Shown: one piece after another, positions 46,297 through 56,848 of the stretch
Layout: the number at the start of each line of letters is the position of its first letter
Position numbering within the stretch: position 1 is the stretch's first letter
DNA from: Anaerolineae bacterium
GTDB lineage: Bacteria > Chloroflexota > Anaerolineae > Aggregatilineales > Phototrophicaceae
Reading direction: 5' to 3'
DNA length: 64,000 nt
Assembly: GCA_022841825.1 (NCBI GenBank)
Contig: JALHQT010000008.1
Span: forward strand, 62,001 to 126,000
Position numbers and translations under genes: made by a program
The notes under the pieces: generated by a model
What the model saw: the letters and a program-made list of their open reading frames with translations, nothing else
Told to the model about the DNA's origin: nothing
Databases searched by the model: none

Positions 46297-48021
46297 CTAA
46301 GTCAGGTCGCGCATCAGAGTCTGGCAGGCAGCTTTGATCTCCGCGCCGGTGGAAAGGCGTATCGCGCTCTCGACAAAACGCGCACATTCGGAACGGCTGA
46401 GTGAACGCAGCGCCGCTTTCACTTCGGGTATCGCCATCGCCGCCATGCTGAACTCGTCCAACCCCATGCCCAGCAGCAGCGGCGCGGCAAGCGGATTGCC
46501 CGCGAACTCTCCGCACAACCCGACCCACTTCCCTTTGGCGTGTGCCGCCTGGATCGTGCGTTCGATCAAGGCGAGCACCGCTGGGTGAAAGGTATCCGCC
46601 AGGGGCGCGACGCGCGGATTGGTACGGTCTACCGCCAGCGTGTACTGCGTCAGGTCATTGGTGCCGATGCTGAAGAAATCGACGATTTCAGCAATCCGGT
46701 CCGCGATCAGAGCGGCTGACGGGATTTCAACCATGATGCCGAACTGCACCCGTTCCGCATACGGGATGTGTTCGCCATGAAGCTCTTCACGCACGCGGTC
46801 TAGCAGCGTACGTGCCTGGCGCACTTCTTCGACGTTTGCGATCATCGGCACCATAATGCGCAGATCAGCGCCGACGCCCGCCCGCAGCAGCGCACGGAAC
46901 TGCGCCTCGAACACATCGGGATGCTCGCTGACCATACGGAAGGCTCGCCAGCCAAGAAAGGGGTTCTGTTCTTCCGCGAAGCCAAGATACGGTACCGCCT
47001 TATCACCGCCAATGTCGAGCGTGCGGACGACCAGTGGGCGTCCGCCCATCGCCTCGACCACCGCGCGATACGCCTCGTACTGTTCGTCTTCGCTCGGCAG
47101 CGTATCGCGGTCGAGGAAAAGGAACTCGGTGCGAAACAAGCCAACGCCTTCCGCGCCGAACTCAAGCGCCTGACGCGCATCGTCCACGCCGCCGATGTTG
47201 GCGACAACCTCGACATGAACCCCATCGCGCGTGATGGCAGGGTCGTGCGCGCGGGCACGATGTGTTTGTTCTCGCGCACGCCACGCTTCTCGTTTTGCCT
47301 GAGCGCTCGCCAGCTCGCTCGCCCCAGGGTTGAGAGTGACCGTGCCCGCCATCCCGTCGAGGATCATGGTCATTCCACTGGTCACCTTATCGATGCTCAT
47401 CGGCACGCTGACGACCGCCGGGATGCCGAGGCTGCGTGCGAGGATCGCCGTATGCGATGTAGGACCGCCGAGCGAGGTCACCAGCCCGAGGATCAAATCC
47501 TTGTCGAACTGGACGGTATCCGACGGTGTGAGGTCGTCCGCGACCAGAATCACAGGCGCGGTGGGCATCTCCGACATCTCGCGCACGCCGAGCAGCAGAC
47601 GCACGATCCGCCGCGAGACATCGCGCACATCCGCCGCGCGCGCGCGAAAGTACTCATCCTCGACCGCTTCGAACTGCGCCGCGTACTCCTCCGCCGAGTC
47701 GAAGACGGCGGCTTCAGCATTCAGGGCGTTGTCGCGGATGCGCGCCTCAATTGCAGCGGTTAGTTCCGGGTCCTGCGCAAACATCTGATGCGCGTCAAAG
47801 ATCGCGGCTTCGTCGTCGCCGATCTCGGTGCGCGCCTTCGCCTCCAGCGCCTGCAATTCTTCGACCGCGCGCACCACCGCGTTGTGAAAGCGCGTCAGTT
47901 CGACGCTGGTATCGCCCACAACACGCCTGTCGAATTGCAGATCGACATGATGATAGACCCACGCCACGCCGTAGGCGACGCCGGGAGACGCCGCCAAACC
48001 CGTGTAGTGCTGAGTACTCAT
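46297..48021 (-). CDS. ptsI: PTS Enzyme I (phosphoenolpyruvate-protein phosphotransferase)
   Basis: A 574-residue Enzyme I, which autophosphorylates from PEP and passes phosphate to HPr. The phospho-His lies at about 190 in GGPTSHTAILARSLGIP. The C-terminal PEP-binding domain has FRTEFLFLDRD, RTLDIGGDK, the FGIMVEIPSA strand, FFSIGTNDLTQYTLAVDRTN and VGLCGEFAG (the catalytic Cys region). All key motifs are intact. It is the last gene of the PTS operon, overlapping the E2 stop by ATGA, an unusual position since ptsI normally follows ptsH. Confidence 0.96.
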   Translation of the reverse strand: MSTQHYTGLAASPGVAYGVAWVYHHVDLQFDRRVVGDTSVELTRFHNAVVRAVEELQALEAKARTEIGDDEAAIFDAHQMFAQDPELTAAIEARIRDNALNAEAAVFDSAEEYAAQFEAVEDEYFRARAADVRDVSRRIVRLLLGVREMSEMPTAPVILVADDLTPSDTVQFDKDLILGLVTSLGGPTSHTAILARSLGIPAVVSVPMSIDKVTSGMTMILDGMAGTVTLNPGASELASAQAKREAWRAREQTHRARAHDPAITRDGVHVEVVANIGGVDDARQALEFGAEGVGLFRTEFLFLDRDTLPSEDEQYEAYRAVVEAMGGRPLVVRTLDIGGDKAVPYLGFAEEQNPFLGWRAFRMVSEHPDVFEAQFRALLRAGVGADLRIMVPMIANVEEVRQARTLLDRVREELHGEHIPYAERVQFGIMVEIPSAALIADRIAEIVDFFSIGTNDLTQYTLAVDRTNPRVAPLADTFHPAVLALIERTIQAAHAKGKWVGLCGEFAGNPLAAPLLLGMGLDEFSMAAMAIPEVKAALRSLSRSECARFVESAIRLSTGAEIKAACQTLMRDLT

Positions 48022-49487
48022 AGCAGAATCCGTTCGGGGTGCAGCAGCGCCTGAGACAAATCGCTGATGTAACGCGCGGCGACGGCACCATCGATGGCGC
48101 GATGATCGACCGAGAGTGTGATGGTCGTCATCGGGCGCAGCACAGGCTGGTCGTCATCGTCCGGCACAAACTGCTTACGTGCGCGCCCAATTGCCAGGAT
48201 ACCCACCTGCGGAGGATTGATGATCGCCGTGAAGCGATCCACGCCGTACATACCCAGGTTGGAGATGGTGAATGTTGCGCCCTGGATCTGGTCGAGCGTG
48301 AGCTTACCCGCCTGTGCCGCCTGCCCCAAGGCGCGAATCTCTGCGGCAAGGTCGTAAATGCCCTTGCGGTCGGCGTCGCGCACGACGGGTACGATCAAGC
48401 CATCTTCCAGAGCGACGGCGATGCCGATGTTGACCGATGACATGACCAGCACCTCTTCACCGTTGAGGTGGCTGTTCAGAAGCGGGTGGCGGCGCAGCGT
48501 CCAGGCGACCGCGCGCGTGAGGAGCGCCGTCAGCGTCACCTTCACGCCTTCCGGCGCGTTCGCATTGGCGTAGGCAACCAAGGCGTTCGCCTCGGACATA
48601 TCGACTTCGACCTGGAAGTAAATGTGCGGCGCTTCCTGGGCGCTCTTTTGCAGATTGCGCGCGATGATACGGCGCATGTTGTTGAACGGGATGCGCCGCG
48701 CGATACTTCCTTCTTGTGTGATGGGAACGGGCGCGGACGCCATGAATGGCGTCCCTACAACGCCCTCTGCCGCACGCGGGGCGGGTTCCGCTGCTGCGGT
48801 CGCCGCCTTCAGCGATGCGACATACGCCTCGACATCCGCCGTCTGGATGCGCCCGCTCGCGCCTGTGCCACGCACCATCTCCAGCGCCACGCCGAGCTGC
48901 TCCGCCACGCGCCGCGCGGCAGGCGATGCATTCGGCTTGCCACTCGGCGCTGATGCGCTTGGAGCGGACGCCCCATGGGGCGCCCCTACAGGATTCGCCT
49001 GCAGGTATGACTCGACATCGCGCTGCGTGACGCGCCCACGCGGACCCGTCCCGGCGATCTGCCGAATATCGACGCCCGCATCCTGCGCCATGCGCAGCGC
49101 CAGCGGCGACGCCCCGGCGTCGTTAACGATAGGGTCGGGTGTAGGGGACGACCCATGTGTCGTCCCGTCGGCTGGCGTGGATTGTGGGGGCGCAACATGT
49201 TGCGCCCCTCCCGACGACGGAACGGACATCCCAGAGGGCAGAGTCTCGCCCGGCGCGAGTATCCAACAGACAATCTCCGTCACCGGCACGACATCGCCCT
49301 GCTTGTAACGGTAACCCGCGAGGATGCCGCTGACGGGCGCTTCGACTTCCATCGACACCTTGTCGGTTGAAACTTCCATGATCGGGTCGCCCGCATCGAC
49401 ATGATCACCTTCGTTCTTCAGCCAGGCGAGGACTTCCGCCGTCTCCTGGGTGAAGCCGAACTTCGGCATAATGACTTCTTTAGCCAT
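48018..49487 (-). CDS. Dihydrolipoamide acyltransferase (E2) in PTS operon
   Basis: A 489-residue E2. The lipoyl domain has K43 in VSTDKVSMEVEAP. A first peripheral-subunit-binding motif (PLALRMAQDAGVDIRQIAGT) and a second (PAARRVAEQLGVALEMVRGT) are both visible, which gives two binding domains. The catalytic core ends in DHRAIDG (H462, D466). The linkers contain several palindromic repeats, translated as Gly/Ala/Pro-rich peptides. It acts with the E1 alpha and beta encoded just upstream and needs an E3 that is not in this window. Confidence 0.95.
   Translation of the reverse strand: MAKEVIMPKFGFTQETAEVLAWLKNEGDHVDAGDPIMEVSTDKVSMEVEAPVSGILAGYRYKQGDVVPVTEIVCWILAPGETLPSGMSVPSSGGAQHVAPPQSTPADGTTHGSSPTPDPIVNDAGASPLALRMAQDAGVDIRQIAGTGPRGRVTQRDVESYLQANPVGAPHGASAPSASAPSGKPNASPAARRVAEQLGVALEMVRGTGASGRIQTADVEAYVASLKAATAAAEPAPRAAEGVVGTPFMASAPVPITQEGSIARRIPFNNMRRIIARNLQKSAQEAPHIYFQVEVDMSEANALVAYANANAPEGVKVTLTALLTRAVAWTLRRHPLLNSHLNGEEVLVMSSVNIGIAVALEDGLIVPVVRDADRKGIYDLAAEIRALGQAAQAGKLTLDQIQGATFTISNLGMYGVDRFTAIINPPQVGILAIGRARKQFVPDDDDQPVLRPMTTITLSVDHRAIDGAVAARYISDLSQALLHPERILL
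48735..48758. repeat. Palindromic repeat copy in E2 linker
   Basis: GGACGCCAT and ATGGCGTCC flank a 2-base loop, followed by CTAC. It lies inside the E2 gene and is translated as VGTPFMASAP on the minus strand, in the same frame as the other copies. Confidence 0.7.
48966..48989. repeat. Palindromic repeat copy in E2 linker
   Basis: A perfect 14-bp core CGCCCCATGGGGCG with outer GG/CC pairing and flanking CTAC. On the minus strand it encodes VGAPHGASAPS between the two binding-domain motifs. Confidence 0.75.
49141..49167. repeat. Palindromic repeat copy in E2 linker
   Basis: GTAG flank, then GGGACGAC and GTCGTCCC around a 6-base loop. Encodes DGTTHGSSPT on the minus strand, in the Gly/Pro-rich linker after the lipoyl domain. 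It is 20 bases from the next copy. Confidence 0.75.
49187..49208. repeat. 22-bp perfect palindrome in E2 linker
   Basis: GGGGCGCAACATGTTGCGCCCC is fully self-complementary. On the minus strand it encodes GAQHVAPP. Its core resembles the intergenic copy at 54584-54611. Confidence 0.8.
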
Positions 49488-50506
49488 CAGTATTCGCCTT
49501 TGACCAGCTTGCGTGCCTCATCGACGATGTTCTGCACCTGCGGCACAGTGTTCATCTCCAGCGTACGATTGTAGGGGATCGGGATGTCCAGCCCCGCCAC
49601 ACGGCGGACGGGCGCTTCGAGATACCCGAACGCCTCGCTCTCCATGATGCGCGCCACGATTTCGCCACCGAAGCCACCCGTCTTGACTGCCTCATGCACG
49701 ACCATCGCTTTGCCGGTCTTGATGACGCTTTCGATGATCGGCGCGTCATCCAGCGGCATCAGCGTGCGCGGGTCGATGACTTCAAGCTCAATGCCTTCGC
49801 CCGCCAGGATGTCCGCCGCCTGCAACGCGCGCTGCACCATGACCGAGGTGGCGATGACCGTGAGGTGCTTGCCCTGGCGCGCAACATTGGTCTTGCTGAG
49901 GGGGATGGTATACATCTCCTCCGGAACGTGCGCCTTCGTCTTATAGAGCAGCTTATGCTCGACGAAGATCACCGGATTGTCGTCCTGGATTGCGCTCAGG
50001 AGCAAGCCTTTCGCATCGTAGGCGTTGCTCGGCATGACGACCTTCAAGCCAGGCACATGCACGAACCAATTCTCAAGGCTTTCCGAATGCTGCGCCGCCG
50101 CACCAGTGCCGCTGCCCGCCGGAGTGCGGAGCACCATCGGCACGGTCGCCTTACCGCCGAACATGAAGCGGATCTTCGCGGCTTGCAGGACGAGCTGTTC
50201 CATCGAGATCGTCACAAAGTCCATGAACTGAATTTCGCCGACCGGGCGCATCCCTGTCAGCGCCGCGCCGATGCACGCGCCTGCGATGCCCGCCTCGCTG
50301 ATCGGCGTGTCGATCACGCGGTCGGCACCATATGCCTGCACCAACCCCGCCGAAACGCCAAATGCCCCGCCGTAGACGCCGACATCTTCGCCAATGACGA
50401 AAACACGCTCGTCAATCGCCATGATCTGATTGAGTGCCTCTCGCAGCGCCTCCACGACCGTCAGTTCGCGGGCAGCGCCGTTTGGGTGTCCGTTCTGCTC
50501 AGGCAT
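49487..50506 (-). CDS. E1 beta subunit of TPP-dependent dehydrogenase
   Basis: A ~339-residue beta subunit (transketolase-like pyrimidine-binding plus C-terminal domain): [50 protein letters not shown] and the C-terminal [17 protein letters not shown] and [12 protein letters not shown]. It pairs with the alpha subunit of the next gene to decarboxylate or cleave a 2-oxo/acyloin substrate. The ATG at 50506 overlaps the E1 alpha stop (ATGCCTGA), which decides this start; the longer open frame is not needed. The exact substrate (pyruvate, acetoin or other) is not readable. Confidence 0.95.
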
Positions 50507-51485
50507 ACACGCCCTCCATAATGTCGGCAACGTCGGGTTCTGGGCTGTTTTCCGAAAAAACGACAGACTCTTCAATGCGCTGACGTGCCTGCGCATGGAG
50601 TGCTTCGCGCTCTTCGTCGCTCATCCCCAGGAAAGTGGCGAAGCGGCGGATCGGCTCTTTCTCCTGCCACTCTTTGACCTCTTCGCGGGTGCGGTACGCC
50701 TGTTTGTCGCTCTTGCTGTGCCCCTTCCAGCGATAGGTCCGCGATTCGATCAGCGTCGGACCTTCGCCGCGCCGAGCGCGCGCCACCGCCTCGACCGCCA
50801 CGTCATAGACCGCCAGCAGGTCGTTACCATCGACCGTCACACCGATGATGCCATATGCCGAGGCGCGGTCGCTGACATGCTCGATATTGAACGCACGCTT
50901 GAACGCCATCGACATCGCGTACTGGTTGTTTTCACAAAAGTAGATGATGGGTAGATCCCAGATGCTTGCCATATTGACAGATTCGTGGAACGCGCCTGTG
51001 TTCGCGCCACCATCGCCGAAAACCGCCGCCGCGACCTGATCCGTCTTGCGCAGCTTGATCGTCAAGCCGACGCCGACCGAGATCGGCAGCCCACCCCCGA
51101 CGATGCCGTTCGCGCCCAGGTTATTGGTATCGACATTGGCAATATGCATCGAGCCGCCACGTCCGCGACAATACCCGGTCTCCTTGCCCATGAATTCCGC
51201 CATCATCAGGTCGGGGCTGCTGCCGTACCACGCCAGGCAGTGCCCATGCCCGCGATGGGTGTTGAGCAGGTAATCGTTCCGAGCAAGCGCGGTCGATAAG
51301 CCAACCGCAGATGCCTCCTGCCCGATGCTGAGGTGCATCGTGCCATGCACGCGCCCCAATGCGAACAGCTCTTCCGCCTTCTCCTCGAAGGAACGAATGA
51401 GCATCATCTTCAACAGCATCTCGTGCGCCTGTTCGGCGCTGATGCCGCGTTTCTGGAGTTCTTCCAGCGCAACTGCTGCTACCAC
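50499..51485 (-). CDS. E1 alpha subunit of TPP-dependent dehydrogenase
   Basis: A 328-residue alpha subunit. The TPP motif is complete: [20 protein letters not shown] with the Asn pair in CENNQYAMS. The substrate region has [16 protein letters not shown] and [12 protein letters not shown], typical for the acetoin/pyruvate-type alpha. The start is GTG at 51485. It is the first of the E1alpha-E1beta-E2 triplet inserted between the PTS enzyme genes and Enzyme I. Both subunits look fully functional, unlike the neighbouring aldolase-like protein. Confidence 0.94.
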
Positions 51486-51508: not shown

Positions 51509-52162
51509 TCACTTCATTGTAATCTGCGCCCAGCGTTCGGCGCTGTGTAGTTTCGCGATTGCCTCGTAACCGTCCGCGCCATAGCTGATAATGCCGCTCG
51601 CCGTGACCAGTACGCTCGCCTGCGCTGCCATTCCTGCAACCGCCGCCGCCGTCGCGTCCGATAAGGCCGCCAGCCCGCCACAATCCTCGGCGAAGCCGAA
51701 GAGATCGTCAGGACGCATGACCTGCGCGCTTTCGATGCCTTCGTCTGCATGTGCGCGTTTCGTCTGAAACGCCATTTTCATCAGCGCGGCAGGCTGCACG
51801 ACCAGCACCACACGCACATCCGGCAGCGTCGCGTAGATTGCACGGTGCCAGTCGATGTGGTGCGGCAAATCGGGCGTATCGAGTGTCCTGTTCGGCTGCA
51901 TCGCCGCCAGCAGCAAATCGCCATCACCCGCGCTGCCAAACCACGTCGCACGTCCTGTGATGAGCATCTTGTTGCCCGCTACGCGCAGGCTTGCCTCGCT
52001 CAACCGCCCCGCAGCCAACCCAGTATCGAGCGCCTGCGCGGCAACCGCCAGCAGATGCTCACGCTGGAAGCGCGGCACAGTCGCGGCAAGGCGGTTCTGC
52101 ACGCTGCGCCCGGCAGGTATCAACGTGAGCGGCGCGGTTGTGCGCTGCGGGCGGCGGAACAT
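51509..52162 (-). CDS. Class II aldolase-like protein lacking metal ligands
   Basis: A 217-residue protein with the class II aldolase/adducin fold pattern: ASLRVAGNKMLITGRATWFG, then WHRAIYATLPDVRVVLVVQP. In true fuculose-type aldolases this last stretch ends H-x-H (zinc ligands) and the preceding Glu is catalytic. Here the segment reads V-V-Q and the third His (normally NHG) is Ser in TASGIISYG. All zinc ligands appear to be lost, so it is probably not a metal-dependent aldolase. It overlaps the oxidoreductase gene by one base (TGATG), so they may act together. Confidence 0.7.
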   Translation of the reverse strand: MFRRPQRTTAPLTLIPAGRSVQNRLAATVPRFQREHLLAVAAQALDTGLAAGRLSEASLRVAGNKMLITGRATWFGSAGDGDLLLAAMQPNRTLDTPDLPHHIDWHRAIYATLPDVRVVLVVQPAALMKMAFQTKRAHADEGIESAQVMRPDDLFGFAEDCGGLAALSDATAAAVAGMAAQASVLVTASGIISYGADGYEAIAKLHSAERWAQITMK

Positions 52163-53472
52163 CAGGCGCTGACCGCTTTTACCAGGGCGTCCTGCTGGCG
52201 GCGCAGGCGCACAATTGCTTGCCGTTCGTCAATGTCGACATCCGAATAACGAATCGGATCGCCCATCTTGACAGGCTTGACGACCAGCGCGCCGACCGAC
52301 AAGCCGAGCGGCAGAATGTCCTCCGCGGCTGCCGTGCTCGCCTGATCGATCATTCCGTAGACCGTGTAGCCACCCAGCGAGTCGATCTTTTCGCCCGGCT
52401 GCAAATCGCGCTTGGCAACCGCGATGGTCTCCGCGACAGGCGGTGTCTTGGTCACCAACGTCGGGTTGCCATCCAGTGCGACATGCGCAATCGTGATCGG
52501 CGTCTCCAGGTTCGCCAGATGATACGGGCGATAGAGCGCGAAGTAATTGCCATGCCCATTGAGGCGCAGATACTTGAGGTCTTTGAGGATTTTCGGTTGG
52601 TCAGTCGTGATGATGATGAAGACACCCGGCGCGACATCGCCGACCGCGTAATCGACGCGGCGCTTCTCGTCAAAGATGCCCCCATCCGCCTTCGGCACGA
52701 ACACCTTCGCCAGGTCTCCAACCGTCGTGTGGGGACCGTATGCACCGCGAATCTCCGGCGCATAACCGACGCCATTTCCGATGCTTGTCATCTCGACCAT
52801 CGTCTTGGTCCCGTCCACGAACGAGCACAACATCTTGGCGCTCATCTCGTTCTTCGCCGCGCGGTCAGCCAGCGATGACGGGGTGGCGGTGCGGTCAAGC
52901 GGATTGTTCTTGCCCTTGCCAACGGTGACAATCTCGAAGCCAAGTGCATCCGCGAAGTCGTAGAGTTCCTTGATCGACCCCGGCTCATCGCCCGCCACCA
53001 ACGAATAGACGACGCCTTTTTCCTTCGCCATCTGATAGAGCTGGTAGCCGATGGTCGCGTCGGTCTCGACGTTCATGTTGACGATATGCCGCCCGGCGTT
53101 GATCGCCGCTTCGCAGATGCGCGCGCCCACCTCCGGCACACCCGTCGATTCGACGATCACATCCAGATGCGGAATGTTGACGAGAAAGTCGCTGTTATGG
53201 GTGGCGACGCGCTTGCCATTCGCAATCGCGGCACCTGCCATATCGAGATTATCCTCGATCAGCTCGACCTGATTCGCAGGGACATCGCTCTCGACAAACG
53301 CCGCCTGCGGGCGCCCCTGGATGACATCGGCAACGGCGACAACTTTGACGCCATCCATCTTCTCGACCTGGCTGATTAAGCCCGTGCCCATCTGCCCAGC
53401 GCCAACCAGCCCAACGCGAATCGTGCCCTTGTCACGCGCACGTTCCTGTAGACGCTCACGCAAAGACTGCAT
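52162..53472 (-). CDS. SAF-domain NAD(P)-dependent oxidoreductase
   Basis: A ~436-residue protein. The N-terminal Rossmann fold (RVGLVGAGQMGTGLI) resembles the homoserine-dehydrogenase NAD-binding domain, the middle contains NNPLDRTATPSSLADRAAKN and PEIRGAYGPHTTVGDL, and the C-terminus is a SAF domain (TIAVAKRDLQPGEKIDSLGG). Such fused enzymes occur beside polyol-type PTS and kinase systems. It probably oxidises the phosphorylated substrate. The start is taken at the second ATG (53472), which has AAGGAG at a proper distance; an ATG at 53478 lies too near that site. Confidence 0.88.
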   Translation of the reverse strand: MQSLRERLQERARDKGTIRVGLVGAGQMGTGLISQVEKMDGVKVVAVADVIQGRPQAAFVESDVPANQVELIEDNLDMAGAAIANGKRVATHNSDFLVNIPHLDVIVESTGVPEVGARICEAAINAGRHIVNMNVETDATIGYQLYQMAKEKGVVYSLVAGDEPGSIKELYDFADALGFEIVTVGKGKNNPLDRTATPSSLADRAAKNEMSAKMLCSFVDGTKTMVEMTSIGNGVGYAPEIRGAYGPHTTVGDLAKVFVPKADGGIFDEKRRVDYAVGDVAPGVFIIITTDQPKILKDLKYLRLNGHGNYFALYRPYHLANLETPITIAHVALDGNPTLVTKTPPVAETIAVAKRDLQPGEKIDSLGGYTVYGMIDQASTAAAEDILPLGLSVGALVVKPVKMGDPIRYSDVDIDERQAIVRLRRQQDALVKAVSA

Positions 53473-53620
53473 TGCCATGCTCCTTGTAACTTAAAATGGA
53501 TTTCAAAGAGGCGAAAGAACAAATGAAGACGGCTGTATGGGTACTAAGTCCACATATCACGCGGCAGGGACACAGCATCAGGGGCGGCGAAAGATTTCGT
53601 GCAATAGTTTCGGTCTTACT

Positions 53621-53983
53621 TCAGGCGCTCTCGATACGCAGTGTGCTGCCCACATGAATTTTCGGCAGTGATTTCAATTCCACGCACACATCGCCAGGCA
53701 TCTCCGGTTCCGTCATGCCGTTGCATTTCATCACCAGGTGACCCAGGTTGGATAGATTCGTATTGGCGACATCGCCAACGGCGAGGACGCGGAAACGCAT
53801 GTCATCAAACGACACCCAATCCCCCGCCGCAATCGGTGCGCGTAGGGAACCGCCATTATGCAGTATGGCGAACTCACGCAGTTCCTCCGGGGCGCTTTCG
53901 CCAAACAGCACCACCACCCCCTCATTGAGGAACTCATCAACCATCGGACCTACGGCGGAAACAGTTGCCTGGTACTTAAGCAT
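53621..53983 (-). CDS. PTS glucitol/sorbitol-family EIIA
   Basis: A 120-residue EIIA of the glucitol (Gut/Srl) family. Compared with SrlB it has the same layout, with EFAILHNGG (candidate phospho-His), GDWVSFDDMRFRVLAVG and VANTNLSNLGHLVMKCNG being family-conserved. It receives phosphate from HPr and passes it to EIIB. The ATG at 53983 has GAGAAG before it, so I drop the upstream frame, which runs into a palindromic repeat. It lies 102 bases after EIIB. Confidence 0.9.
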   Translation of the reverse strand: MLKYQATVSAVGPMVDEFLNEGVVVLFGESAPEELREFAILHNGGSLRAPIAAGDWVSFDDMRFRVLAVGDVANTNLSNLGHLVMKCNGMTEPEMPGDVCVELKSLPKIHVGSTLRIESA

Positions 53984-54049
53984 CGCTTCTTCTCTCATCA
54001 TACCCAGATACCTTATGGGAGCGTCCCAGACCTGACGAACGCGCCCGCG

Positions 54050-54072
54050 GGGACGCCCTAAAGGGGCGTCCG
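54050..54072. repeat. Palindromic repeat copy between EIIA and EIIB
   Basis: GGACGCCC at 54051-54058 pairs with GGGCGTCC at 54064-54071 across a 5-base loop. It lies in the short gap between the EIIB stop and the EIIA start and is not translated in the chosen reading. Confidence 0.75.
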
Positions 54073-54085
54073 CCACGCAGCCGAA

Positions 54086-54466
54086 TTACGGGACAACTTC
54101 AAGGTCAGCTTCACTGACGCCAGAGACAAACAACTCCGCTTTGATGAAGCGGAAAAGTGGACCCGACGGACGTGTCGCGTGAATGTCGACCGTCAAAACG
54201 CCCTTCATTGGATAAACACCAACACGCGCAGTACCGCCGCAGTCGATGACCGCAACCGCAATCTCGCTGAAATCCGCCTTGGAGCTGAAGCCATCAAACG
54301 CGGTGCCTCCGGTCAGTTCAGCGATCTTTGCCGCCAGCGGGTGAATACCACCACCGGTGACGCAGTAAATCAAATCTCTGCCGGGCTTCGGTTCGACAAT
54401 CAGCGGACCGCCCCATCCACGCTTGCCAGCGCTAATCTTTACTTTCTTATAGACTTTCTCAGACAT
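54086..54466 (-). CDS. PTS glucitol/sorbitol-family EIIB, stand-alone
   Basis: A 126-residue soluble protein matching the N-terminal B domain of SrlE: GKRGWGGPLIVEPKPGRDLI, GGGIHPLAAKIAELTGG, VAVIDCGGTARVGVYPMKG, SGPLFRFIKAELFVSGVSE. The Cys in IDCGGT is the likely phosphorylated residue (inferred from the family). In enteric SrlE this domain is fused to the membrane domain; here it is separate. AAGGAG stands 7 bases before the ATG at 54466. Confidence 0.9.
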   Translation of the reverse strand: MSEKVYKKVKISAGKRGWGGPLIVEPKPGRDLIYCVTGGGIHPLAAKIAELTGGTAFDGFSSKADFSEIAVAVIDCGGTARVGVYPMKGVLTVDIHATRPSGPLFRFIKAELFVSGVSEADLEVVP

Positions 54467-54583
54467 AATGGAGCTCCTTGTCTTGTCTTGTTTCGCCGTA
54501 AGTATTAACAATCACGGCTAAGTTGTGGATGAGAACCAGGATAACGTTGTGAGACCTGTCGTCAACACATCCAACGACGGTGC

Positions 54584-54626: not shown

Positions 54627-55181
54627 TTACGCTGCTGGCTGGTCGTAAAGACCGAAGCTGAACAGGTAGGCGATCACGACCGAGATCGGTCCGGTGATCA
54701 GACGCGAGAACAATACGGCAGGGACGCCAACTTCGACGGTCTCTGGTTCGGCTTCGCCGAGCGCCAGACCCACCGGGATGAAGTCGCAGCCCACCTGCGG
54801 ATTGATGGCGAAGAGCGCGGGCAGTGCCAGGCTCGGCGGGATCGTGCGCTGCGCGATTAACGTGCTGCCAAGCAGCGTACCGATAACCTGCGCGATGACC
54901 GCGCCCGGACCCAGTACAGGCGACAGGAACGGCAGCGCGATGATGATCGACAGGACGACCAGACCGACCACGTTGTTCGCCAGCGGTGCAAGGGCGTTCG
55001 CCAGGGCGCTGCCGATGCCGGTATACAGGATGATCCCGATCACCAGCGAGATGAACGCCATGAAGGGGATGATGTTGACAAGAACCTGATCGACGGCATC
55101 GCGCCCCGCCTGGTAGAGTGCGCCGACGACGCCGCCGACCGCTTTACCAATCGTGACCAAGAATGCGTTAAATCCACCCAT
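54627..55181 (-). CDS. PTS glucitol/sorbitol-family membrane domain (SrlE C-terminal part)
   Basis: A 184-residue membrane protein matching the C-terminal half of SrlE: ALYQAGRDAVDQVLVNIIPF, LPFLSPVLGPGAVIAQVIGT, PALFAINPQVGCDFIPVGLA and VGVPAVLFSRLITGP. It forms the sugar channel with the EIIC protein. It lacks the EIIB domain, which is a separate gene further downstream. In transcription order the membrane domain comes before the B domain, reversed from the fused enzyme, so this is not a simple frameshift split. Confidence 0.92.
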   Translation of the reverse strand: MGGFNAFLVTIGKAVGGVVGALYQAGRDAVDQVLVNIIPFMAFISLVIGIILYTGIGSALANALAPLANNVVGLVVLSIIIALPFLSPVLGPGAVIAQVIGTLLGSTLIAQRTIPPSLALPALFAINPQVGCDFIPVGLALGEAEPETVEVGVPAVLFSRLITGPISVVIAYLFSFGLYDQPAA

Positions 55182-55202: not shown

Positions 55203-55937
55203 TTACTTGGCGTCGCGGCGCGACCACATGATGGCGGTGATGCGCTCGGTGACGATACCACGGATAAAGATGACGATGACGCCGACAATGAAATACCGAA
55301 TTGCCAGGTCGCCCAAACCCAAGCCGAGCGAGGTGATGCCTGCCGCAATACCGCCCCAGACGAAGAACTCGCCCGGATTGACGTGCGGGAACAAGCCGAG
55401 CGGCGGGTGTACGAACGACACTGCCGAGTCATAGAAGGCGGGCTTGTATTTTTCGGGCAAGAAGCGACCCATCGTGTATGCCATCGGATTCGTCAGGAAG
55501 AAGACGGCGAGGATAGGGAGTAGGATGTAACGAACGGGATAGTAGACCAACCCCGGACGCGCCGCCCATTCGCCAACACGGTCAATGCGATCCGCGCCGA
55601 TCAGGGCGATGAGGGCATTGACGAACGTCATCAGGACGACGAGCAGTGGGACGATACCGCCGATCAGACCGACGAGCACCTGACCACCGCACTGGAACAT
55701 GCCGATGAAGTCCTCGGCAAGGTGCGCCAACGCGCCTTCGTCCGAAGCACGCTGATCCCACGCGACATAGGCGCAGGCATCGCGCGAAGCACGGGCGGCA
55801 AACGCTGCGTCAACCGCAGCTTGAACCTCTGCCGGGATTTCGGGGGCAGCGGGGGCGTCCTGCGCGGACACCACCATCGGAAGCGCAACCAGCGCGACCA
55901 GCGCCAGCAGCACGAACAGGATGCGTAACTTGTTCAT
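55203..55937 (-). CDS. PTS glucitol/sorbitol-family EIIC with exported N-terminal extension
   Basis: A 244-residue protein whose C-terminal ~165 residues match SrlA (VNALIALIGADRIDRVGEWA, FFLTNPMAYTMGRFLPEKYK, FPHVNPGEFFVWGGIAAG). In front lie a signal-like segment (LRILFVLLALVALVALPMVV), then about 60 residues rich in Ala/Glu with two Cys (RDACAYVAWDQ, GMFQCGGQV), a region absent in SrlA. The C-terminal channel would start after this. AGGAG lies 11 bases before the ATG. The extra part may sit outside the membrane. Confidence 0.9.
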   Translation of the reverse strand: MNKLRILFVLLALVALVALPMVVSAQDAPAAPEIPAEVQAAVDAAFAARASRDACAYVAWDQRASDEGALAHLAEDFIGMFQCGGQVLVGLIGGIVPLLVVLMTFVNALIALIGADRIDRVGEWAARPGLVYYPVRYILLPILAVFFLTNPMAYTMGRFLPEKYKPAFYDSAVSFVHPPLGLFPHVNPGEFFVWGGIAAGITSLGLGLGDLAIRYFIVGVIVIFIRGIVTERITAIMWSRRDAK

Positions 55938-56104
55938 CGCAAAAATCACTCCTAAGAACCACTTTCCGCGCAAGCGTATCGACTCACTGCTGGATGCCCA
56001 CCCAATTCTCGCACCTCAGCACTGTGCAAACCGAAATAACGTCGCTGCAAGCTTCACTCCTTTCGAACACGCTTCCCCCGAGGCATGGCGGCGCGTAACG
56101 CTGA

Positions 56105-56569
56105 TTACGCGGACGTCCCTACTTCTTGACCGAGCGCTGCCGCCTCCTTAGAGACTTCGGCTTCGGTGTGAACGGGCTGGGGCTTCGCCAGCTCGTTGTG
56201 AATATCGCGAGCAGCATTGAGAAATGCGTCCGCGAGTTTCTGGCTCAATCCATGGGCTGTGCGCTCTGTCAACAGTGCATCGAGCGACTGTCCCTGAAGC
56301 TGTGGCACGGGTTGCAATCCCGCGAAGATCGTCGCACCCAGGAATTTCTCCGCATGGATGATCCTGCGCGTCTCGCGGTCAACGGTGAGGACGCCGTAAA
56401 CCCGCCCATTCAACCGATTCCCTGTCATGCCAATCGCCGTCAAACCGTCCCGCCGAAGCTGCTTCAGTCGCGTATAAAAGCGCGAAAGCTGCCGACTGGA
56501 AAGCCAGAACTGGAGAACCCAGGCGGCGACCAGGAGCACGATGATCAGCGTGGCGGTTTGAGTATCCAT
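56105..56569 (-). CDS. GutM/SrlM-like protein (glucitol operon activator family)
   Basis: A 154-residue protein with an N-terminal hydrophobic helix (ATLIIVLLVAAWVLQFWL), a basic segment and a GutM-like beta region (GRVYGVLTVDRETRRIIHAEKFLGATIFAG). In enteric bacteria GutM accompanies the srl operon as an activator. It lies 6 bases after the HPr gene. Its membrane helix makes a DNA-binding role doubtful here, so 'activator' is only by family. Confidence 0.82.
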   Translation of the reverse strand: MDTQTATLIIVLLVAAWVLQFWLSSRQLSRFYTRLKQLRRDGLTAIGMTGNRLNGRVYGVLTVDRETRRIIHAEKFLGATIFAGLQPVPQLQGQSLDALLTERTAHGLSQKLADAFLNAARDIHNELAKPQPVHTEAEVSKEAAALGQEVGTSA

Positions 56570-56575
56570 CCTGCC

Positions 56576-56848
56576 CTACTCGCCAAAATTGCTTTCGATC
56601 AGCGAGCGCAATGCGGAAAGCGCAGGTTCCGACTGTTCGCCGTGCGCTTCGATCCGGATCTGATCGCCTTTCTTGACCGTGAGCAGCATGAGTTTGAGTG
56701 GGCTATCGCCCTTTGCGGGACCCTTGTTCGAGGTCATGTTCCACACATTAATTTCGGCGTCAAACTGCTTGACGACCTTGACGAATTGCGCAAGCGGTCG
56801 CGCATGGAGTCCCGCGTCATGTTCAATGGTGAGCAGCAATTGGGACAT
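56576..56848 (-). CDS. PTS phosphocarrier HPr
   Basis: A 90-residue HPr-family carrier with the phospho-His H15 in HDAGLHARPLAQFVK and the regulatory-site-like Ser in GDSPLKLMLL, where the segment before it carries about 3 extra residues relative to enteric HPr. It takes phosphate from Enzyme I and gives it to EIIA. First gene of the 12-gene operon and preceded by an AT-rich region with an inverted repeat. It seems dedicated to this system rather than a general HPr. Confidence 0.93.
   Translation of the reverse strand: MSQLLLTIEHDAGLHARPLAQFVKVVKQFDAEINVWNMTSNKGPAKGDSPLKLMLLTVKKGDQIRIEAHGEQSEPALSALRSLIESNFGE

Follow-up and report, generated by a model that had tools for sequence, protein, structure and literature searches.

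What can be the role of a protein that has the fold of a class II aldolase and lacks the zinc ligands, the catalytic glutamate and the phosphate site of these enzymes? This question is raised by one gene of the window, the 64,000-nucleotide stretch of DNA analysed here, in which such a pseudo-aldolase is encoded between an oxidoreductase and a thiamine-diphosphate dehydrogenase.

Organization of the operon

The pseudo-aldolase gene belongs to a group of twelve genes (Table 1) that follow each other in the order HPr, GutM, IIC, split IIB, IIA, oxidoreductase, pseudo-aldolase, E1 alpha, E1 beta, E2 and enzyme I. The genome G431 shares this set of twelve genes, with their order unchanged. The family matches of E1 beta were obtained on a longer ORF extending to 50596, and the GLHARP motif is presumably that of an HPr. 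In the segment 46297-56848, the PTS of a catabolic operon comes with an HPr and an enzyme I of its own, and its IIB is divided between two genes.

Table 1. Genes of the operon in the window, with the family models and structures they match.
Feature	Position	Strand	Evidence
PTS enzyme I	46297..48021	-	PF02896, PF05524, PF00391
E2 lipoyl acyltransferase, one lipoyl and two E3-binding domains	48018..49487	-	PF00198, PF02817 (two stretches), PF00364
E1 beta	49487..50506 (internal ATG chosen)	-	PF02779, PF02780; NF006667 367 bits (cut-off 321)
E1 alpha, thiamine-diphosphate dehydrogenase	50499..51485	-	PF00676 E 1.1e-82; TIGR03182 354 bits (below the cut-off of 393.85)
Pseudo class II aldolase, 217 aa	51509..52162	-	PF00596; ligand columns lost
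Predicted DXR-II-type (DRL) NAD(P) oxidoreductase with SAF domain	52162..53478	-	PF21135 E 1.5e-59; SAF PF08666; PDB 3upl/3upy E 5e-102 to 7e-102
PTS glucitol-type IIA	53621..54076	-	PF03829 E 2.4e-33; NCBIfam matches below cut-offs
PTS glucitol-type IIB, N-terminal part as own gene	54086..54511	-	PF03612 E 8.6e-46
PTS glucitol-type IIBC, C-terminal part as own gene	54627..55181	-	PF07663 E 1.7e-45
PTS glucitol-type IIC (SrlA)	55203..55973	-	PF03608 E 3.5e-72; NF049923 above cut-off
GutM-like regulator	56105..56569	-	NF007592 E 1e-12 (below cut-off)
HPr-like protein	56576..56848	-	GLHARP motif read from the sequence; similar ORFs in related operons

The GC content is of 0.61-0.64 over about 46-53 kb and of 0.56-0.60 around, and no tRNA was detected at 40-64 kb of the window. 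PHROGs gave one weak match, of unknown function. Neither a sorbitol-6-phosphate dehydrogenase nor an intact class II aldolase is present among the eleven operon proteins scanned. In a tree of E1 alpha with the seven paralogs of the same genome, these paralogs are placed on long branches, which suggests a specialisation of the operon E1.

Loss of the active site in the pseudo-aldolase family

The columns of the active site were numbered according to the fuculose-1-phosphate aldolase FucA, where we take His92, His94 and His155 to be the zinc histidines, Glu73 the catalytic residue, and Asn29 and Ser71 residues of the phosphate site (the numbers E73, N29 and S71 occur in titles of PDB mutants). 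The multi-alignment with control aldolases reveals that, in the window protein, H92 is replaced by V121, H94 by Q123, H155 by S189, E73 by H102, N29 by E56 and S71 by P100, so that a histidine is found at neither the H94 nor the H155 column. The sequence-only reading had noticed V-V-Q after PDV and a serine in place of the third histidine; both the profile alignment and the alignment of 56 rows bear this out (V121-V122-Q123 and S189), and the losses of E73, N29 and S71 are to be added to its list. A shift in sequence of otherwise intact ligands is excluded by the FucA profile alignment, by the 56-row alignment with controls and by the structure.

Conservation was compared between 27 family members (the window protein included, the frameshifted copy of locus L040 left out) and 29 control class II aldolases. 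The controls had themselves been retrieved through their resemblance to the window protein; they correspond to the Chloroflexota HMM matches below 1e-20 in the 30 loci L002-L032 without L010 (L023, having no such match, was dropped) and include eight tandem proteins, represented in the alignment by their first domain. Glu73 and His92 are kept in all the controls and in no family member, and His155 in 29/29 controls versus 2/27 members. The corresponding values are 24/29 versus 10/27 for His94 and 29/29 versus 1/27 for Ser71. Asn29 is conserved in 28 controls and in none of the family, where the position is occupied by a glutamate (E56) in 23 of the 27 sequences, a residue found there in none of the 29 controls. 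Two of the three zinc histidines are never present together in any of the 27 members, and no new conserved set of ligands was detected in their alignment.

A reduced alignment of 22 members (A4) was obtained by removing L010, found by a separate genome search, and four Acidimicrobiia-type rows. In it E56, S58, H106 and G190 are invariant. However, S58, H106 and G190 are each conserved in 29/29 control aldolases and Y110 in 26/29; with this conservation in ordinary class II aldolases, these four residues are probably structural. The six other columns of the former site (55, 100, 102, 121, 123 and 189) rank from 28 to 185 of 209 by conservation, and E56 becomes an alanine in the four Acidimicrobiia-type members. 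These last proteins (L069, L075, L078 and L079) are reduced further: the stretch containing H106 and Y110 is gone, in addition to the loss of E56.

Members of A4 are matched by the NCBIfam models for various class II families, among them OtnC (3-oxo-tetronate-4-phosphate decarboxylase) in 13 of the 22. In the loci L142 and L143, a distant oxidoreductase of the family (identity of about 27%) has as neighbours OtnK (3-oxo-tetronate kinase) and a gene annotated "aldolase", which is class II by Pfam in L142, and OtnC was for this reason considered as a candidate parent of the pseudo-aldolase. The scores do not single it out: with the family profile, the two OtnK-adjacent aldolases reach 76 bits, a value inside the range of 59-117 bits given by other single class II domains, themselves retrieved through their resemblance to the window protein.

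Fold of the pseudo-aldolase

The only Pfam match of the ORF is PF00596, with 48 bits (cut-off 22.2) and an E-value of 1.7e-12, and the same domain is matched at E <=0.1 in 25/25 members of a 25-member alignment (A3). The single window sequence found no confident match in the PDB (best aldolase-fold match at E 1.4), whereas a profile of 25 family members retrieved the class II aldolases 2irp (E 9.6e-19) and 1fua (E 7.7e-13). The AlphaFold model, built from 22 sequences with that of the window first, has a mean pLDDT of 85.5 and a pTM of 0.82. Foldseek relates it to the fuculose-1-phosphate aldolase 2opi (E 8.9e-12), and VIA-align superposes it on 2opi with a Z-score of 22.4 (rmsd of 2.0 over 174 residues) and on the E. 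coli FucA (1fua) with a Z-score of 20.3. The remainder of the fold, said to be well matched on sequence grounds, is therefore confirmed by the structural comparison with fuculose aldolase that had been asked for, and the window protein combines the fold of class II aldolases with the loss of their zinc ligands, catalytic glutamate and phosphate site.

The likeness to FucA extends over the residues 28-217 of the model. As the last of these residues aligns with position 183 of the 215-residue chain of FucA, the C-terminal tail, of about thirty residues, is missing. The head of adducin (8iah) also has this fold (Z 17.8 at an rmsd of 4.5) and is not known to have aldolase activity; it belongs to a eukaryotic membrane-skeleton protein, and its profile match (E 3.1e-7) is weaker than those of the bacterial aldolases. 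Another comparison is offered by eight tandem class II proteins of the same phylum (L002, L003, L004, L005, L006, L008, L009 and L021; open frames of 435-498 residues). Their first domain is intact, and in all eight the second domain has lost E73, H92, H94 and H155, with constant Thr, Gln and Asp at the histidine columns. The pseudo-aldolase resembles these second domains by the replacement of the same four residues, H94 being likewise replaced by Gln; unlike it, the dead domain of the tandem proteins is fused to an intact one and keeps the constant Thr/Gln/Asp pattern.

Selection on the pseudo-aldolase gene

The dN/dS ratios (Nei-Gojobori) of the pseudo-aldolase are of 0.17-0.18 for Chloroflexota (four pairs, three of which come from a single trio) and of 0.19-0.31 for Acidimicrobiia (three pairs); dS exceeds 1 in four of these seven measurable pairs, and one further pair was saturated. 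The oxidoreductase displays ratios of 0.02-0.07 in five pairs. The comparison indicates a working gene, kept by purifying selection under looser constraint, with a rate of evolution several times that of the oxidoreductase gene. Its open frames are of similar length in distant lineages. In the locus L040 (11310-11943) the pseudo-aldolase is spread over two frames, by a sequencing error or in a broken gene.

A neighbour of the DXR-II type

The one-base overlap reported between the pseudo-aldolase and oxidoreductase genes is real: in the sequence TGATG, the stop codon and the ATG share the base 52162. The neighbour had been called a SAF oxidoreductase; the SAF domain is present, and this identity was incomplete, the protein being, as judged from its sequence, an enzyme of the DXR-II (DRL) type. 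It matches the Brucella enzyme 3upl over nearly its full length (E 5e-102). Residues important for DXR-II are named from the Brucella enzyme in the pertinent sections of PMC3847144, and the published key residues are kept: E174, F178, K191, K193, T229, R320 and Y322 correspond to E171, F175, K188, K190, T226, R317 and Y319 of the window protein (numbered by hand on the Brucella alignment). G121 and V351 of Brucella are also kept, as G118 and V348, whereas one DXR-II mark, H250, is changed into Y247. With the neighbour assigned to this type, the operon takes on another meaning. The same genome also contains, at G000:C5:174389-175651, a distant second member of this family of oxidoreductases (35%).

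Host isoprenoid route

The host of the window differs from Brucella in that it shows no MEP route. DXR-I and IspH were found in none of 16 genomes, that of the window included, and HMG-CoA reductase in all of them. The genome of the window (assembly rated 95.67% complete) contains no IspG and no DXS above the cut-off, the best match reaching 171 bits over the C-terminal half for a cut-off of 466. The absence of DXR-I, IspG, IspH and a full DXS, together with the presence of HMG-CoA reductase, indicates that isoprenoids are made here from mevalonate and that the DXR-II-type enzyme does not serve the MEP route; it must do something else in this host.

Such a situation has precedents in the relevant parts of PMC3847144, where DXR-II is present in hosts that use only mevalonate or show neither route. 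The enzyme of Chloroflexus aurantiacus, a mevalonate-only host, has DXR-II activity by complementation of an E. coli dxr mutant, and the enzyme of Finegoldia, where both isoprenoid routes were missed, was likewise confirmed to be active (PMC3847144). The activity recorded in these parts is toward MEP, by complementation (PMC3847144). In the corresponding section of a 2026 review, the occurrence of DXR-II among bacteria is described as scattered and as lacking any defining pattern, apart from an overrepresentation in certain pathogens (PMC13001223).

Distribution and linkage across genomes

A contig scan with the oxidoreductase gave 396 relatives, of which the best 80 loci were retained, 78 of them with at least 650 nt downstream; taxon labels were assigned from record titles. 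Among these best 80 of 396, 26 of the 78 loci have the pseudo-aldolase gene immediately after that of the oxidoreductase, L040 being counted as present. This placement, with the purifying selection described above, upholds the earlier statement that the gene is conserved in an operon. Chloroflexota outside the Ktedonobacterales contribute 22 of these loci (of 33), Acidimicrobiia 3 (of 6) and unnamed bacteria 1 (of 6); within the same best 80, the gene was found behind the oxidoreductase in 0/4 Ktedonobacterales, 0/5 Spirochaetes, 0/22 Firmicutes and 0/2 others. The gene that follows the pseudo-aldolase varies (E1 alpha, HPr or another), so the linkage is to the oxidoreductase. When 400 sampled genomes of the phylum were searched with the profile at E 1e-40 (at most 7 candidates scored per genome), only the genome of the window and G431 gave a match, in both cases behind DXR-II and nowhere else. 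At the usual place of the pseudo-aldolase, two loci (L033:11322-12116 and L035:11323-12108) contain an HPr with about 170 extra N-terminal residues.

In the oxidoreductase tree, from which a partial sequence (L063) was dropped and where L041 and L103 were left unlabelled for having too little downstream DNA, the presence of the pseudo-aldolase needs at least 7 changes, 3 of them forced by the starred branches, compared with 23 for shuffled labels. As read from this tree, the distribution may result from few origins and several losses, or from a few transfers. Among 61 genomes (that of the window and 60 relatives), no close copy of the oxidoreductase was detected besides its own, and four others have 34-45% identity at E 1e-40; within this set of genomes, the operon thus stands isolated in this lineage.

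DXR-II operons in other bacteria

Among the best 80 of 396 relatives, at least two glucitol-PTS parts are located upstream of the oxidoreductase in 57/70 loci. In the 44 loci of this set with 7 kb on both sides, PTS genes are found in 34, E1 in 28 and both in 27; E1 has the same orientation in 19 of these 27 and the opposite one in 8, and 16 of the 44 lack it. In three loci (L061:14068-16149, L062:11901-14096 and L082:14409-16499), E1 alpha and E1 beta are matched by a single long frame, the subunits being apparently fused.

Five alphaproteobacterial plasmids with at least 40% identity were inspected, and E1 alpha, E1 beta and E2 follow DXR-II directly in four of them (L124, L136, L126 and L138), the exception being Phyllobacterium. 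On rhizobial plasmids, DXR-II is followed by E1 alpha, E1 beta, E2 and E3, and an ABC transporter, in one case with a sugar kinase, replaces the PTS. For transport, S. meliloti Rm41 has an ABC transporter and a sugar kinase, R. sophoriradicis an ABC transporter and Terrarubrum a glucitol PTS; the plasmid of Rm41, pRM41A, also carries lpdA and lipA (lipoyl synthase) with DXR-II and E1 alpha-E1 beta-E2. In two related plasmid operons, E2 is annotated as of the acetoin dehydrogenase type. In Priestia, an FGGY kinase, E2 and lpdA are near by. The Listeria innocua cluster has a PTS and no E1 within 6 kb; that of L. salivarius has a PTS, a fructose-6-phosphate aldolase and a transketolase, with no E1/E2 in the stretch seen. 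A DXR-II relative (43%) in locus L129 (G047, 1-2748) lies directly after two genes that resemble, by eye, the halves of a transketolase. Finally, four distant relatives (27-34% identity) have other contexts and no E1 within 5 kb. As inferred from these contexts, the common denominator would be the conversion of a phosphorylated polyol by DXR-II into a ketose phosphate, for whose cleavage a thiamine enzyme would often be at hand.

Proposed function and alternatives

We propose that the operon degrades 2-C-methyl-D-erythritol and that the pseudo-aldolase is a non-catalytic partner of DXR-II, a joint explanation to which we give a probability of roughly one half. The substrate would be taken up and phosphorylated as MEP, by the PTS or elsewhere by an ABC transporter and a kinase. 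DXR-II, run backwards, would then convert MEP into DXP; the equilibrium of DXR, which favours MEP, speaks against this direction. Finally, E1/E2 would cleave DXP in the way that acetoin dehydrogenase acts on acetoin, yielding acetyl-CoA and glyceraldehyde 3-phosphate. The operon shares the E1 alpha-E1 beta-E2 architecture of acetoin dehydrogenase; unlike in that system, the E1 models point to PDH, and DXP is a predicted substrate. DXP handling by a PDH-type E1 is plausible, since aceE (PDH E1) mutants have raised DXP and since purified PDH, given pyruvate and D-glyceraldehyde, forms deoxyxylulose, according to the pertinent part of PMC3424233; this same part describes the DXP made in vivo by the wild-type E. 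coli PDH as insufficient. The E1 models matched being those of pyruvate dehydrogenase, an ordinary PDH is also possible. Further points against the route are the loci in which E1 is missing or oppositely oriented, the recorded activity of DXR-II toward MEP, the tyrosine at the place of H250 and the DXS-like C-terminal half encoded in the genome. Among the matches listed, in a scope mostly outside subscription journals, no report of methylerythritol catabolism or of a DXR-II/PTS/E1 operon was recognised.

The route formed by PTS, DXR-II and E1/E2 has no aldolase step, and relatives without the pseudo-aldolase gene keep the rest, so that the simplest role for the protein is that of a non-catalytic partner, which would carry out no step and might act as a stabiliser, regulator or docking piece of DXR-II. 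The regulatory or scaffold subunit imagined in the sequence-only reading is accordingly the best supported, by the lack of a conserved new ligand set, by purifying selection and by the tracking of DXR-II, and it is still something that we infer. In 19 rows (the window and 18 loci having all six genes), the pseudo-aldolase distances correlate weakly with those of the oxidoreductase (partial r of 0.30, 5/2000 permutations as high); the values for IIBC, IIBN, IIA and IIC are 0.24 (43/2000), 0.23, -0.15 and -0.23. Against a partner role, the protein is dispensable, being absent behind 11 of the 33 non-Ktedonobacterial Chloroflexota oxidoreductases in the best 80 of 396 relatives. More tentatively still, and with the odds slightly against it, DXR-II could be, in many bacteria, no isoprenoid enzyme and instead the second step of an unrecognised catabolism of methylerythritol, with DXP cleaved by an acetoin-dehydrogenase-like complex, the pseudo-aldolase being a dedicated subunit in Chloroflexota and some Acidimicrobiia.

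Other roles can be imagined for the pseudo-aldolase itself. A pocket rebuilt with Glu56 (in place of Asn29), His106 and Tyr110 could catalyse a reaction without zinc, for example an isomerisation or a mutarotation, and the four residues invariant in A4, of which E56 is new to the family, would fit such an enzyme. We find it improbable, as S58, H106 and G190 are kept just as well in the controls and Y110 in 26/29 of them, E56 is an alanine in the Acidimicrobiia-type members, the six other former site columns rank from 28 to 185 of 209 and the proposed route requires no additional enzyme. The tandem proteins, all eight of which pair an intact first domain with a dead second one, and the four other places of the genome that match PF00596, would agree with an inactive subunit completing a mixed tetramer with an ordinary class II aldolase encoded elsewhere; yet no intact aldolase is present among the eleven operon proteins scanned and the gene tracks that of the oxidoreductase across genomes, which makes this idea quite improbable as well. 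As for a decaying relic of an aldolase formerly used in the operon, it would account for the fast evolution, the patchy presence (at least 7 changes, 3 of them forced) and the frameshifted L040 copy, but the purifying selection in 7/7 measurable pairs, the similar length of the open frames in distant lineages and the confident predicted fold leave it very little probability.

A last alternative concerns the operon and is compatible with the partner role: it would serve an ordinary sorbitol or other polyol, with a generic pyruvate dehydrogenase and a DXR-II-like enzyme acting on a different substrate. The PTS parts are indeed of the glucitol/sorbitol family, the E1 models are those of PDH, and the L. 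salivarius and Listeria innocua clusters described above show a PTS and no E1 in the stretches covered. We nevertheless consider it somewhat unlikely, given that a sorbitol-6-phosphate dehydrogenase is missing among the eleven operon proteins scanned, that the DXR-II key residues are kept, that the E1/E2 genes trail the oxidoreductase in differing transporter contexts, and that the DXR-II of the mevalonate-only Chloroflexus complements an E. coli dxr mutant, as stated in the section concerned of PMC3847144.

Significance

The pseudo-aldolase is one more dead catalytic fold kept for another job, and its operon setting matters more than the pseudoenzyme itself. Methylerythritol is a plant metabolite, and 2-methyltetrols are products of isoprene in air; a natural substrate would therefore exist for the methylerythritol pathway, if it is true. 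A catabolic role, if true, would explain the presence of DXR-II in hosts that use only mevalonate or show neither isoprenoid route.
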